This document shows positions 8,153-30,725 of a stretch of DNA of 42,031 nt, piece after piece. The stretch spans positions 1-42,031 of the forward strand of contig JAKASW010000004.1 of assembly GCA_021818875.1 (NCBI GenBank), given 5' to 3'. Position 1 is the stretch's first letter. Every line of letters begins with the position of its first letter. The DNA comes from Bacteroidota bacterium. Its GTDB lineage: Bacteria; Bacteroidota; Ignavibacteria; Kryptoniales; JAKASW01. Position numbers and translations under genes: made by a program. The notes beneath the pieces are model-generated. The model was given only the letters and a program-made list of their open reading frames with translations. It searched no databases and was not told where the DNA came from.

Positions 8153-10483
8153 CTACCTCGGCAAAATTCTGTAAGTCTTCTTGACCAGGGAGACGTCGGT
8201 CTCCACGAACGGTCGCGGCATAAGCGAACCGGGCCGTGGTGGAAGAGAGAGTCCACCCGGTGATGGAAGGCCGGGAGCGACGCTTATTTCCGTTAGCCGT
8301 AGCGTGTCAGGGTGTGGGATGTTAAGAGAGAGCTTCCAATCTGATCGCGGTCTGCCGAAACAGTACAATATCCACTTTGCATTTTCATGCGATTCCACGG
8401 CAACGCTTGGCACAGGTCTGCCGTTGACATCTGGAGATATTATCCGAGTCAGCATGTTAGCATATAGTTTGATCAAATAGCCATTTGAAGGGGAAGGTAT
8501 CAATAATCTCAAATGGGAGTAACCGCCGCCGCTTGAATCCGACTCCACAGCAATCGAGTCGGCGGACATATCGACGACAGAGGCGTTGGCGACAACTAAA
8601 GGCTGGCCGGTGCCCGGAAAAAAATCCGCTGCTTCTGTCCCGTGCATGTCCTCTATATCTGCGGTGTCTTTGATGAATAGCCGCGTCCACTCGTCGCTTC
8701 GATCGTCGAATGACATCCAGTACGCACTCGTATTGTCAAGATCAACGGCGTAGACCATGCTGTCAGGCTCAGGGTGCTTTACATTGAAATCGTGAGTGAA
8801 GAATCCATCGGAGAAAAGAGCAAGACCGATCAAGAATAACACAGCCGGCAAAATCCATTTATTCGGGGATGTGATGATAGCAAGGTGAGGGAGGAGAGTC
8901 CCAATAGTCAGGATCGAAAGACCAACAACAACTGCTGCCATTTCCGGAAGCAGACCGTTGAGATAAAGGAGGTGTGACAATTGCGTGGCGAGATAAACTC
9001 CCGGTATAGCACAAATCAGAAGCACACCGAATATTAAAGGTGATCTGAAGTCCGCCTTTTTGACGACGAAGAAGAGGAGTAGTGCGAGCGAGCTCAGGAG
9101 AAGCGGCCATTCGGCAACGTAGCTTGCCTCGGGAGCATACCGTGCAGAAAGAATCAGAAAAATGAGCCACCACACGAGTGCTCCGGTTGCCATCTCGGAG
9201 GAACGAAAGAATTTGCGAAGGTAAACGTACCATGTTGCTGTTGCCGCGGCCGCAAATACGATGATCCCCGACAGGACAAAACCGGTGTTGTAGAAATAAC
9301 CGTAGATGAACCGCGATGCTTCGGGGAAATATCCCTGGAGAAATTCCCACAGAAAGAAAGTGCCGGTGCAGAAAACAGCCAGGGGTATGCCGAGGAGAAA
9401 AATCCCAACGATTGATTTGCCAAGTTTGATCACTTCGTTCCGAATGCCGGCGTAAATCATCAGGAGGAAGATTATCAACGTGGCTGCCGTCAATGGTGTC
9501 ACAAGAGAGACGGGATAATAAACGAAATGCGGCCAGAGGAAATTGAAATAAACGTCGTTCACCTCAGCAGCGGGCGGAAGAATCCGATCGCCGTAGTAAC
9601 GGGTCAGAGCGAGCGCGTAAGCTCCGTCGTGTTGCAGGCTGCGCGGGTCGACGTTTGCGTAGTTGTCCAGCTCGCTGTGATACCGATCGGCATCTCCAAT
9701 GAATGCGAAATTGTAGCCCGCGATCCCTTTCGTTTTCAACCTCGTGAAATCCGTATTGTTCGGCGAGCGCTTGTACAAATCATATGCAACGGAAGTCGCC
9801 ACAGCGTCCGGAACGTTTTGTGCCAGATCCTGAATCAGAGTCCCGTTGTTCTCGCTCGTTTCGAACATGAGGACTGGTCCCGAATTGCCTCTTGCCTCGA
9901 AGTTCAGCACGATGCCGATCTTCTTGACAAGCGACTCATTTTCAGCGATTGCTTGTGAACCCAGCATTCCTTCTTCTTCTCCGTCCGTGAAGATGGCGAT
10001 AACATCGTTCCTAAGCGGCGGAGACGACTTCAAAGCGTGAAGCGTCTCAAGTATCGTGGCCACTCCCGATCCATCATCGCTTGCACCCGGGCCGGTCGGA
10101 ACAGAATCATAGTGTGCCATCAGCACCACGGCCTTGCTGTTCGCCGTGCCCGGAAGTCTGGCTACTATGTTAACGACAAAAGCCGCATAGTGAATGCCAT
10201 GAAACATGCCTGTCACAGTTGTGCTGTCGAGAGTCGGCCTGATTCCCATCGCCCGAAGTTGGCCAACTATGTATTCTCGAACCTTCGCTTCTGCAGGAGT
10301 GCCGATCGGGTGCGGCGCTGCCGCAATATGTCTGATGTAGCCCATAGCTCTGTCGGCGGAGAAAACAGAGTCGGGTGCAGTAGCGGGGACCACTCCGGGT
10401 GGTTGCAAGTTGTAAATTGCGCTCGCAGCAACAACGATTAGAAAGAGAAGGGCAATAACAGCGGCTGGAATCGGTTTCATCAC
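8153..10483 (-). CDS. M28 family metallopeptidase with C-terminal multi-pass membrane region
   Basis: VVLMAHYDSVPTGPGASDDGSGVATILE, TDGEEEGMLGS and NTDF motifs of M28; followed by several hydrophobic helices. Confidence 0.92.
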   Translation of the reverse strand: MMKPIPAAVIALLFLIVVAASAIYNLQPPGVVPATAPDSVFSADRAMGYIRHIAAAPHPIGTPAEAKVREYIVGQLRAMGIRPTLDSTTVTGMFHGIHYAAFVVNIVARLPGTANSKAVVLMAHYDSVPTGPGASDDGSGVATILETLHALKSSPPLRNDVIAIFTDGEEEGMLGSQAIAENESLVKKIGIVLNFEARGNSGPVLMFETSENNGTLIQDLAQNVPDAVATSVAYDLYKRSPNNTDFTRLKTKGIAGYNFAFIGDADRYHSELDNYANVDPRSLQHDGAYALALTRYYGDRILPPAAEVNDVYFNFLWPHFVYYPVSLVTPLTAATLIIFLLMIYAGIRNEVIKLGKSIVGIFLLGIPLAVFCTGTFFLWEFLQGYFPEASRFIYGYFYNTGFVLSGIIVFAAAATATWYVYLRKFFRSSEMATGALVWWLIFLILSARYAPEASYVAEWPLLLSSLALLLFFVVKKADFRSPLIFGVLLICAIPGVYLATQLSHLLYLNGLLPEMAAVVVGLSILTIGTLLPHLAIITSPNKWILPAVLFLIGLALFSDGFFTHDFNVKHPEPDSMVYAVDLDNTSAYWMSFDDRSDEWTRLFIKDTADIEDMHGTEAADFFPGTGQPLVVANASVVDMSADSIAVESDSSGGGYSHLRLLIPSPSNGYLIKLYANMLTRIISPDVNGRPVPSVAVESHENAKWILYCFGRPRSDWKLSLNIPHPDTLRLTEISVAPGLPSPGGLSLPPRPGSLMPRPFVETDVSLVKKTYRILPR

Positions 10484-24947: not shown

Positions 24948-25420
24948 ATGCAGATGGCGGTAAACTCGCAAAAGGCGACAGATACGTAAGAGATGCTTCT
25001 TCGTTGTGCCGCACTCGTAGGCTCTATGGATGACGCAGCTATTGGCAAAACACTTGAAGGGACCATAGCTGACTGGAACCCGGCGAGGAGAAAATACATG
25101 AATACAAGGGTGACGAAGTTCTCGGCAAATCAATTCTTATTCTATTTCCGTCTCACAAATACAATGAGGATCTTGAAGTCATATCGCGCATCGCGAAGGG
25201 TGAGCGATTTGAACACTATGAGACGGTAAGGCTCAGGAAAGACCGCAAGCTATCGGTATTGCGGTGTTGGCTTGAGAAGCGTGAAGCCTGGCGAAGGGGG
25301 AAGACAGTCAGTTATGAAGATGGATTGTCCGTGATCCTTGACGTCAGGATAGAGCCGGTCCCGCTCGATGCGTTGATACTCTCCGTAGAGATCAGCGGGG
25401 TCAGGGCAGCCGAACAATAG
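24948..25420 (+). pseudogene. Degraded PAS-domain sensor kinase fragment, paralogous to the kinase at 29196
   Basis: MQMAVNSQKATDT*EMLLRCAALVGSMDDAAIGKTLEGTIADWNP / frameshift / GEEKIHEYKGDEVLGKSILILFPSHKYNEDLEVISRIAKGERFEHYETVRLRKDRK then LSVLRCWLEKREAWRRGKTVSYEDGLSVILDVRIEPVPLDALILSVEISG. All segments match the 29196 kinase, with an internal deletion. Confidence 0.82.
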
Positions 25421-25530
25421 GCCTACTGGCATTCAGAATTCTATGCATATTGTCCCATGGTAGAGATCGTCCCCTCTAACACTGCATCCCGTGGACAGGC
25501 TTGATATGGACTAATTCCTTTTGTAGATTG

Positions 25531-25546
25531 TTGCATAGTAATGCAA
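25531..25546. promoter_or_regulatory. Putative ArsR-type operator palindrome
   Basis: Perfect inverted repeat TTGCAT-AGTA-ATGCAA, ~22 nt upstream of the ArsR-like start codon. Confidence 0.55.
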
Positions 25547-25568
25547 TTGGACAATAACAGGAGACTTG

Positions 25569-25928
25569 ATGCCAAAAGGAATGAGAGGGAGGCACGGTCA
25601 CGGGATGGGCGGCAGGATGATGGGATCGATGATGGATCCGCGGAGCCGGTTCTTCCTGGCCCTTTCGAATGATCAAAGGTTGAAAATCATAAGGATGCTG
25701 AAAGACGGTGAGAAAAGTCTTTCCGATATCGTGAAAGGACTTGAAATTGATGTCTCCGTGGTATCCAGACACTTAATGATGCTTCGTGGACTCGGTATTG
25801 TGTCCGCCCGTCGGGAAGGACTCTACGTTTACTTCAAAATAGCGGACAAAAGGATTTTCGATATAATTGCATTGTCCAACCAGATCATCACGGACTGGTT
25901 CAAACAAAATCAGCAGATGTTCGAGTAA
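25569..25928 (+). CDS. ArsR-family HTH regulator with Met/His/Gly-rich N-terminal extension
   Basis: DPRSRFFLALSNDQRLKIIRMLKDGEKSLSDIVKGLEIDVSVVSRHLMMLRGLGIVSARREGLYVYFKI; N-terminus MPKGMRGRHGHGMGGRMMGSMM. Confidence 0.9.
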   Translation: MPKGMRGRHGHGMGGRMMGSMMDPRSRFFLALSNDQRLKIIRMLKDGEKSLSDIVKGLEIDVSVVSRHLMMLRGLGIVSARREGLYVYFKIADKRIFDIIALSNQIITDWFKQNQQMFE

Positions 25929-25940
25929 AGGAAAACGAAA

Positions 25941-26348
25941 ATGAAAATTGCAGTGGTAACACTCGATGGCAAAACAGTCAGCCAGCACTTCGGCAGATCA
26001 CCATACTATTCTATCATGACGGTTGAAAACGGCGAAGTGAAAACTCGGGAATTGAGAGAACGTAGGACAGGTCACTTTGCCCCTCAGGGTCATCAGCACG
26101 GCAGCGACGTTGATGAAAGGGGACGCCATGGATACGGAGCCGAGGCGAGGATGTCGCACGCGACTATGGCACAGGAGATCAGCGACTGCCAGGTTCTGAT
26201 TGCAGGAGGTATGGGAAGCGGTGCTTATGAGAATTTCAGAGAGTCAGGGTTGAATGTAGTCCTGACAGATATTCAACTGATTGAAGAAGCGGTGAAGGCA
26301 TACATTGCGGGGAATTTAAGGAACCTGGCGAATGATAGAACAGATTGA
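25941..26348 (+). CDS. NifX/NifB-type (dinitrogenase iron-molybdenum cofactor biosynthesis) family protein
   Basis: MKIAVVTLDGKTVSQHFGRSPYYSIMTVENGEV...ISDCQVLIAGGMGSGAYENFRESGLNVVLTDIQLIEEAVKAYIAGNL. Confidence 0.88.
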   Translation: MKIAVVTLDGKTVSQHFGRSPYYSIMTVENGEVKTRELRERRTGHFAPQGHQHGSDVDERGRHGYGAEARMSHATMAQEISDCQVLIAGGMGSGAYENFRESGLNVVLTDIQLIEEAVKAYIAGNLRNLANDRTD

Positions 26349-26431
26349 GAGTCTATCGCTCTGTGCCATGCACTGCGTTCAGAAAGTACTCATGTGCTAA
26401 TCTTCAATTGACAAATGAAAGGGGAACTGAA

Positions 26432-26653
26432 ATGTCTGGCGGTTCTTATGGCTTCAGTTACGGAAGAAGATGGGGCGAAAGAGGGTTTGGCGGATACTTC
26501 GGAACCTGCTCTGCTGAAAGTGAGGTTGACGCCCTGACGCGGTACCGGGATCGGCTTGGGCTGCAGAAGAAATATCTGATAGCTAACGCGGGGCGAATGG
26601 AAAAAAGTATCAACTCCCTGCAAAATGAAGTCACGATATCTTCTCCGGTCTGA
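26432..26653 (+). CDS. Small Gly/Arg/aromatic-rich protein, DUF5320-like
   Basis: MSGGSYGFSYGRRWGERGFGGYFGTCSAESEVDALTRYRDRLGLQKKYLIANAGRMEKSINSLQNEV. GGGG-type RBS before ATG 26432; position next to NifX-like gene. Confidence 0.6.
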   Translation: MSGGSYGFSYGRRWGERGFGGYFGTCSAESEVDALTRYRDRLGLQKKYLIANAGRMEKSINSLQNEVTISSPV

Positions 26654-26728: not shown

Positions 26729-27263
26729 ATGGTTCTCCCAGCACGTATCTCTTTCACCAGAAGTCTCGGGAGACACAAAGACTATCAAAGCTCCTTCGAT
26801 TTGGCGATGAGAGGCAGGAGTCGAGATTTGCAACCTCGTTTCGGTCAGCAGTATTTTCCCGCCAGGCTGTAAAAGGAAAAGCAGGGAAGAAGGGCTTTAA
26901 GAAATAAAGGGCGGCCAGATCATGTTCGCAATCATGGCACGAAACTCGACAAATGAACCGAACCGACTTGCTGCGGCTTCAATCGGAGCGGCAATTCCAG
27001 TCGACACTACCGAGCACGGCGGTCTTTCCGAACATCACGCGTTCGGCGTTAACGAAAGGTCCGCCGGTGATTATGCGGAAGATCTCGCTGCTAAGATGCT
27101 GGCGACAACTCGGGCGTTGAGTTCGATACAAGCACCGCTTGGAACGAGCGCGAGCAGGTTTTCAAGATGTCGGGAAAATTCGTCAGGACCTTTAACATCA
27201 CTCAAGCTGCCCAAGGACACAAAAATGGGTTATGGACGACTGCGCTGGCCGCGGCGGTCCTCC
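26729..27263 (+). pseudogene. Pyruvoyl-dependent arginine decarboxylase (PvlArgDC) relic with two frameshifts and one nonsense codon
   Basis: Reconstructed: MVLPARISFTRSLGRHKDYQSSFDLAMR/fs/[98 protein letters not shown]/fs/[51 protein letters not shown]. Confidence 0.88.
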
Positions 27264-28279: not shown

Positions 28280-28660
28280 TTACATTTTTCTGTCTGAAAT
28301 CCGATTGGCTATGTCTCGAGCACTAACTGCATCAGTCTTTGTTCTCCTCAGCTCAGCTATGCTGTTTGCCTTCACCATGTTCGGATTTAGTCTGGCAACT
28401 CTTACAGGCACGCTGCAAGAAAGCTCTCGAAGCCTCTCATACCAGTCGTCTTCATATCCACCGGTGCTCTCTACCGCTGCATGGATTGTGCTCTCCGGAT
28501 GCGCCGACACGAAGCTCTCAAGATACTTTGTCAACTTCTGATGTCCGTCGAAGGTATCATCAAGCTGGAAATTCTTGTCCACAGCTTTCTTCTCTTGATC
28601 CAACATCACGAAATCGCTGTATCCCTTGCTTACGTCTGCGCCTAAGTAATAGATGTTCAT
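28280..28660 (-). pseudogene. Truncated IS110-type (DEDD) transposase, N-terminal part only
   Basis: MNIYYLGADVSKGYSDFVMLDQ...HAAVESTGGYEDDWYERLRELSCSVPVRVARLNPNMVKANSIAELRRTKTDAVSARDIANRI, then an early stop. No C-terminal Ser-containing domain. Confidence 0.85.
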
Positions 28661-29195: not shown

Positions 29196-30725
29196 ATGGC
29201 GACAGATGCTAAGATAGCGGGACGTTCTGGACCAAACGAAGAGCTTCTCCTCCGTTATGCGGCTATAGTCGAGTCCACAGATGACGCGATTATCGGGAAA
29301 ACACTCAGCGGAATCATTACTGATTGGAACCATGGTGCGGAAAGAATATTCGGCTACAAGGCGCGAGAAGTCATCGGGAAATCGATCTTGATTCTCTTCC
29401 CGCCGGACCGGATGGAAGAAGAGATGCACATACTTGGGCGAATCGGAAAGGGAGAACGGATCGAGAGCTACGAGACTGTCAGAATCAGGAAAGACGGCAG
29501 GAACATAGACGTGTCCGTTACAATTTCTCCGATAAGGGATTTCTCAGGAAGAATTATTGGGGCTTCGAAAATAGCTCGCGACATAACAGAGAAGAAGCTT
29601 CTTCAGGAATCGGTGCTTGAGGCCGAGCGGCATTTCAGGGAGACGCTGGATCGTATGCTGGAAGGTTGCCAGATCATCGGATACGATTGGCGATACTTAT
29701 ACATTAACGATGCTGCGGCGAGTCACGGCCGTCACTCAAGAAAAGCGCTTCTCGGACGCACCATGATGGAAGTATATCCTGGAATTGAAAAGACCGAAAT
29801 GTTCTCCGTGCTCCGACGATGTATGGAAGAGAGAGTAGCCCAGCGAATGGAGAACCGCTTTGATTATGGAGATGGTACGGTCGCATGGTTCACCCTAAGC
29901 ATGGAGCCTGTGCCCGAAGGTACATTCATTTTATCCATCGAAATAACGAACGAAAAGAAACTTCAGGAGGAATTGGAGAAGCACCGAGACAATTTGCAGG
30001 AGCTTGTGAAACAGCGCACGGCGCAGCTCGAGGAAGCAAACAGAGAACTGGAATCTTTCTCTTACTCGGTCTCACATGATCTGCGAGCGCCGCTCCGCCA
30101 TATCAATGGGTTTGTAGAATTACTCAATAAGAGATTGCCTTCTTCTACAGACACGGAATGTTTGAGGAACCTTCAGATAATCTCATCTGCTTCGGGCGAA
30201 ATGGCGCATCTTATCGACAAGCTTCTTGATTTTTCACGTGTGAGCCGTGTCGGACTAAACAAATCAAAGGTCAACACTGACGCGCTAGTCAGAGAGGTCA
30301 TCTCTGGAATGGCTGAAGAGATACGGGACAGATCGATTGAATGGCAAATCGACAAGCTTCCCGATGTTTTTGCTGACCAGGCGATGCTTCGTCAGGTCTT
30401 CATCAATCTATTGTCAAACGCGCTCAAATTTTCCGGCACTCGCGTGAAGGCAAAAGTAAGGGTCGGATGCTGCCGTGAGAAGAACGAAGATGTTTTTGTA
30501 GTTGAGGACAACGGCGTGGGTTTCGATATGAAATACGCTAACAAGCTCTTTGGTGTGTTCCAACGCCTTCACGGTAGTGACGATTTCGAGGGAACCGGCG
30601 TCGGTCTCGCAAATGTTCGAAGGATCGTCGAAAGGCATGGAGGAAGAACGTGGGCCGAGGGAAAAGTGAATGAAGGTGCAGGCTTCTACTTCGCCATTCC
30701 TCACTTACCGGAAGAAGGAGGTTGA
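29196..30725 (+). CDS. Two-PAS-domain sensor histidine kinase
   Basis: PAS S-box motifs; H-box SYSVSHDLRAPLRHINGFVELL; N/G boxes NLLSNALKFS, VEDNGVGFDM, GTGVGLANVRRIVERHGG. Confidence 0.94.
   Translation: MATDAKIAGRSGPNEELLLRYAAIVESTDDAIIGKTLSGIITDWNHGAERIFGYKAREVIGKSILILFPPDRMEEEMHILGRIGKGERIESYETVRIRKDGRNIDVSVTISPIRDFSGRIIGASKIARDITEKKLLQESVLEAERHFRETLDRMLEGCQIIGYDWRYLYINDAAASHGRHSRKALLGRTMMEVYPGIEKTEMFSVLRRCMEERVAQRMENRFDYGDGTVAWFTLSMEPVPEGTFILSIEITNEKKLQEELEKHRDNLQELVKQRTAQLEEANRELESFSYSVSHDLRAPLRHINGFVELLNKRLPSSTDTECLRNLQIISSASGEMAHLIDKLLDFSRVSRVGLNKSKVNTDALVREVISGMAEEIRDRSIEWQIDKLPDVFADQAMLRQVFINLLSNALKFSGTRVKAKVRVGCCREKNEDVFVVEDNGVGFDMKYANKLFGVFQRLHGSDDFEGTGVGLANVRRIVERHGGRTWAEGKVNEGAGFYFAIPHLPEEGG

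Follow-up and report, generated by a model that had tools for sequence, protein, structure and literature searches.

What are three small genes doing together behind a palindrome in a Bacteroidota genome (contig JAKASW010000004.1)? In the window, the 42,031-nucleotide stretch of DNA that was analyzed, a gene for an ArsR-type regulator is followed by genes for a NifX-like protein and a small Gly-rich protein, all three located where the original prediction had put them (Table 1). Comparison of 12 loci indicates that the trio is a conserved cassette and that an operator-like palindrome is common to all members. The cassette is probably an operon under autorepression that encodes a carrier of metal sulfide (Fe-S type) together with a cationic, Gly- and aromatic-rich partner protein. 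The operator and the regulon are well supported by the alignments and genome scans, and we infer that the ligand is a metal sulfide of the Fe-S type. Full-text literature searches found no paper describing the trio.

Table 1. Features of the cassette and its promoter region, in window coordinates
Feature	Position	Strand	Remarks
Promoter-like element	25501..25529	+	TTGATA 25501-25506, 17-nt spacer, TAGATT 25524-25529
Operator-like element GTTGCATAGTAATGCAAT	25530..25547	.	Consensus ATTGCA-N6-TGCAAT; contains palindrome 25531-25546
ArsR/SmtB-family winged-helix regulator	25569..25928	+	119 aa; Pfam HTH_5, NCBIfam HTH_metalloreg
ArsR N-terminal tail, residues 1-22	25569..25634	+	Arg/Gly/Met-rich, disordered; outside domain matches
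NifX/MTH1175-like protein, Nitro_FeMo-Co family	25941..26348	+	135 aa; PF02579
NifX-like His-rich loop, residues 42-73	26064..26159	+	Candidate ligands H45, H63, H73
Small Gly-rich protein	26432..26653	+	73 aa; related to, but shorter than, the DUF5320-like third proteins of other cassettes

A second trio is found in the same genome on C190, a 3.4-kb contig for which a binning error is possible, with an ArsR and a NifX-like protein that are 83% and 82% identical to those of the window and a third protein that is fuller and reaches the DUF5320 cut-off. Another genome of the genus, G011, has the ArsR and NifX-like genes and no third gene. Whole trios in another family were found via a class-wide NifX search, and in the 79 genomes of that family an ArsR profile recovered nine members at E ≤ 1e-53, the next match being at 1e-16. 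These nine, with the window, C190, and G011, make up the 12 loci, which are related, so that counts over them are not independent, and whose source assemblies are for the most part drafts, including many metagenome bins. When the ArsR was searched for across the phylum at E ≤ 1e-16, no genome of the 396 sampled had a match other than that of the window.

Within this set, the co-occurrence of the three genes holds up well. The nifX-like gene is directly downstream of arsR in 11/12 loci, and the Gly-rich gene is present in 10, including C190 and the window; G011 is without it, and in G718 the contig ends. In the 79-genome family, the Gly-rich protein type (E ≤ 1e-15) occurs in eight genomes, all among the nine with the ArsR (hypergeometric P of 3e-10, relatedness of the genomes being ignored). 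In G574, nifX is missing from the cassette and a more distant NifX relative is encoded elsewhere in the genome; the ArsR, the operators, and the Gly-rich gene are kept, which suggests that an adjacent NifX-like protein is not needed for regulation.

The palindrome TTGCATAGTAATGCAA, predicted to be perfect, is exact with zero mismatches and ends 22 nt upstream of the ArsR ATG at 25569. Its significance taken by itself was rejected because the window contains 116 perfect inverted repeats with 6-bp arms and spacers of 0 to 10, and its weight comes instead from conservation in 12/12 loci. In a gap-free alignment, ATTGCA-N6-TGCAAT is found at ≤1 mismatch in every locus of the ArsR subfamily, 19 to 28 nt 5' of the start codon, with arm columns that average 1.84 bits versus 0.69 upstream and 0.76 downstream. 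All 12 promoters have TTGNNN-N17-TANNNT, or something close to it, with the operator at once behind, and seven have a perfect TTGACA, these hexamers having been picked by eye without a significance test. Furthermore, a second operator at 0 to 1 mismatch stands just 5' of the Gly-rich gene in seven loci, including G574, where it is present though nifX is absent from the cassette.

The operator is also specific at the scale of genomes. Across five genomes there are three 0-mismatch sites, all of them cassette promoters, and the exact consensus has 17 matches in the 79 genomes of the related family, 12 in the cassette and 5 at unrelated genes that have no gene in common. A 1-mismatch copy at 8377-8392 of the window was considered as a second target and rejected because it is inside a peptidase-like gene. 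Overall, conservation of the operator and its genome-scale specificity support autorepression, with a regulon that does not extend beyond the cassette. By comparison of sequences, the ArsR belongs to a discrete subfamily whose members have, in their own promoters, ATTGCA-N6-TGCAAT directly behind a −10-like element; the palindrome is an operator-like element, to which the ArsR would bind, judging from its family.

The regulator matches HTH_5 (48.3 bits versus a cut-off of 22) and HTH_metalloreg (66.9 bits versus 55), the latter matched by 12/12 orthologues. Its scores are below the curated cut-offs for TsoR (62 versus 115 bits), BigR (37.6 versus 155), CmtR (37 versus 150), and SdpR (46.7 versus 100). 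The domain starts at about residue 26, and the preceding extension has pLDDT of <50 at residues 1 to 3 and 7 to 18 in the AF2 model. This N terminus (MPKGMRGRHGHGMGGRMMGSMM) had been described as rich in Met and His, which is correct for the window, where seven Met and two His are found among the 22 residues and MMGSMM adjoins DPRS. The Met part of the description extends to the subfamily, with MMGxM invariant and an Arg/Gly/Met character in 12/12 orthologues, but the His part does not: His is found in only 5/12 (2, 0, 0, 0, 0, 0, 1, 0, 1, 2, 1, and 0 residues over the 12 loci), and a conserved His site in the tail was rejected for this reason.

The core of the regulator is poor in ligands. 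No Cys is present in 11/12 orthologues and none is conserved, and H68, in the recognition helix, is the only conserved core His. The canonical sites (alpha3N Cys cluster, alpha5 Asp/His, and sensing dithiol) were not found in the 12 orthologues and are thus considered absent, which suggests that a signal would enter through the tail or through contact with the NifX-like protein. In the autorepressed metal operons of the ArsR/SmtB family, an autoregulatory palindrome is located at the promoter and a metal-handling gene downstream, as in the cassette. The likeness to SmtB, CzrA, and NmtR lies in the winged-helix family, and sequence relatives were found. Unlike these regulators, the cassette ArsR is without a conserved Cys or canonical core metal site, has an Arg/Gly/Met tail and the operator described above, and has the genes for NifX-like and DUF5320-like proteins as its probable targets.

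The NifX-like protein matches PF02579 at 63.3 bits (gathering score, 26.3), and its AF2 model (pLDDT of 87) has fold matches in the PDB to PH0822, TM1816, the NafY core, NifX, and ORP. The fold is that of the nitrogenase cofactor carriers NifX and NafY (NafY core, 1p90; NifX in 9ian). An identity as the nitrogen fixation NifX was rejected because TIGR02663 gives 16.8 bits versus a cut-off of 112, and no nif genes were recognized beside the cassettes that were looked at. Orange protein/MrpORP (PF02579) of Desulfovibrio, a small cluster-binding protein, belongs to the same fold family (2wfb is among the PDB matches; PMC6345978). The NifX-like protein scores 41.5 bits versus 450 for MrpORP, has no Mrp ATPase domain in its 135 aa, and has SQHFGRS where MrpORP has CXHFGHCE; the orp operons are reported to be sigma54 controlled (PMC6345978), whereas the cassette is linked to an ArsR.

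The predicted His-rich stretch is present at residues 42 to 73, and residues 41 to 66 form a loop that is of low confidence or disordered in the model. The view that this insert is unusual was not borne out, as it is general to a large PF02579 subfamily across phyla. Across 67 NifX relatives drawn from several phyla, no variation is seen at H16, H45, or C83, and H63 and H73 are kept in 93% and 96%, respectively; the search pattern itself in part imposes H16, which is not so for the other four residues. The first His of HQHG is not conserved among these relatives. Conservation of H45, H63, H73, and C83 makes the loop a plausible ligand site common to the subfamily. The protein has a single Cys and no C-terminal tail, the chain ending right after the domain. 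The original prediction had made persistence of the His and Met segments in orthologues with the same gene order a point on which it would stand or fall; in such orthologues the Met segment and the His segment of the NifX-like protein are retained, but the His residues of the ArsR are not.

The third frame had been read from a TTG (26345-26653), and a start at the ATG at 26432, giving 73 aa, is more likely. The window protein has no Pfam match, DUF5320 included, and its C-terminal helix shares 51% identity with the DUF5320-like protein encoded on C190. DUF5320 (PF17253) combines a Gly-rich N terminus with a charged C-terminal helix, as do the cassette third proteins, most of which just reach the cut-off of 27 (27.8 for the second copy and 26.9 to 30.7 for other members), whereas the window copy is shorter and unmatched. 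In cassettes other than that of the window, a tail of 34 to 71 aa (34 to 47% Gly, 18 to 31% aromatic, pI 8.4 to 11.8) is followed by the charged helix. The window protein is short, has a tail pI of 6.1, and has no second operator, and thus it may be decaying.

IssA of Pyrococcus furiosus is a NifX-fold protein that stores thioferrate, and its 70-residue tail contains 15 Gly, 14 aromatic, and 7 cationic residues and has a pI of 10.7 (PMC5524996). Thioferrate binding and the formation of nanoparticles are hallmarks of IssA. The resemblance of the third-protein tails to the IssA tail suggests, by analogy, a two-protein (split) IssA-like arrangement. In both cases a NifX-fold domain is coupled to a cationic Gly/aromatic segment, but the IssA tail is on the same chain, whereas the cassette segment is a separate protein and the NifX-like protein has no tail but a His loop.

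Neighbors of NifX relatives were surveyed at 60 loci of other organisms, most of them Chloroflexi. An XRE-cupin regulator is part of the same protein as the NifX domain in 21/60 loci and is encoded near it in 14/60, and genes for MinD-type Fe-S (ferredoxin) ATPases are found nearby in 22/60, for Mrp in 10/60, and for radical-SAM proteins in 10/60. In the window's class, some NifX copies are in TetR-NifX-FmdE-TauE/SafE clusters, the genes being named by similarity among the loci. These neighborhoods point to metal-sulfur or cluster traffic with repeated coupling to regulators. L056, L060, and 19 other Chloroflexi-dominated loci have the XRE helix-turn-helix, cupin, and NifX-like domains fused in one protein. 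NifX-like, FmdE-like, and TauE/SafE-like genes recur in L113, L115, L116, L122, L124, and L172, often with a TetR regulator, the L172 cluster being without a NifX-like gene.

In the mechanism that we favor, an ArsR dimer would bind the operator and block RNA polymerase at the start point, as is known for the ArsR family, thereby limiting expression of the ArsR itself and its partners. The NifX-like protein would bind a metal or a metal-sulfide cluster (Fe-S, possibly Mo- or Cu-S) through H16, the loop residues H45, H63, and H73, and C83, and the cationic Gly/aromatic DUF5320-like protein may assist, for instance by retaining a metal-sulfide polymer of anionic character, the role proposed for the IssA tail. 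Excess ligand would lift repression, its signal entering via the Arg/Gly/Met tail (MMGxM) or via contact with the holo or apo form of the NifX-like protein. The 12/12 operators, fixed promoter geometry, sharp ArsR class, conserved ligands, and Fe-S-type neighbors make such an autorepressed operon the probable arrangement, and the G574 cassette without nifX, G011 without a third gene, the short third protein of the window, and a NifX-like protein that, unlike MrpORP, has one Cys and no C-terminal tail count against it.

Other readings differ mainly in what the ArsR responds to. Its tail may be a mere DNA-contacting arm that reaches into the AT-rich operator flanks, the protein being a plain autorepressor, or one released by a protein partner, with no metal in it. 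This would account for the three to five Arg/Lys and zero to one acidic residues of the tail in every orthologue, the unconserved His, the core without Cys/His sites, and the below-cut-off matches, including the SdpR autorepressor subfamily, in all 12 orthologues. However, an invariant MMGxM beside DPRS exceeds what a DNA arm needs, and the neighboring proteins look metal or cluster related, so we consider this a real possibility with the balance leaning against it. The 7 Met and 2 His of the window tail and the His-rich NifX loop are also what would be expected if, along the lines of the original proposal, the ArsR sensed a simple metal ion via its tail and the NifX-like and Gly-rich proteins bound the same ion. 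That version appears quite improbable, given that tail His is missing in 7/12 orthologues sharing the operator, that canonical sites are absent, and that the NifX His loop also occurs without such an ArsR (in one family, NifX relatives are in 41/79 genomes versus 9/79 for the ArsR).

The NifX-like protein could instead be a sensor that acts on transcription regulators, with the ArsR as its DNA-binding partner in the way that XRE-cupin is in Chloroflexi. Both the frequent fusion to or proximity of XRE-cupin and the ArsR-nifX adjacency in 11/12 loci are in line with this, but in G574 the ArsR and operators are retained although no nifX is adjacent, and we regard the idea as somewhat unlikely. 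More generally, the repeated coupling of the same NifX domain to unrelated regulators (ArsR and XRE-cupin) suggests a regulatory or sensing role. An extension of the autorepressed metal-sulfide operon would make the ArsR a new sensing type, in which a core without metal or thiol ligands reads a metal-sulfide cluster via the tail or the loaded NifX-like protein. This is rather improbable; if true, an ArsR that reads such a cluster would control a metal-sulfide store like that of IssA but split between two proteins.

NifX/MTH1175-like proteins occur widely, and for most of them no function is known. An autorepressed operon that encodes its repressor and has a defined operator would provide a direct handle on their cargo, and the signal that releases the repressor, once found, is likely to reveal the ligand of the NifX-like protein.

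The trio of the window sits amid gene debris. Right 3' of it is a gene for a pyruvoyl-dependent arginine decarboxylase, reduced to a frameshifted remnant (26730-27250; PvlArgDC, 61 bits for one piece), and an intact homologue is found near the G011 cassette (L042:2976-3521). Upstream is a broken PAS-type fragment (24993-25420) that by eye is like the first part of the sensor kinase encoded at 29196-30725, and the minus strand has a transposase-like fragment, IS110-type by eye, at 28280-28660. Elsewhere, what we take to be a chromate-transporter-like gene adjoins the trio in L171 and L176. Beside the trio of L170 (1097-4311) are genes for a CVC-containing ArsR, a permease, and proteins of outer membrane-like and DGC type, a set that resembles the surroundings of nifX in the Bacteroidales loci L048 and L049.
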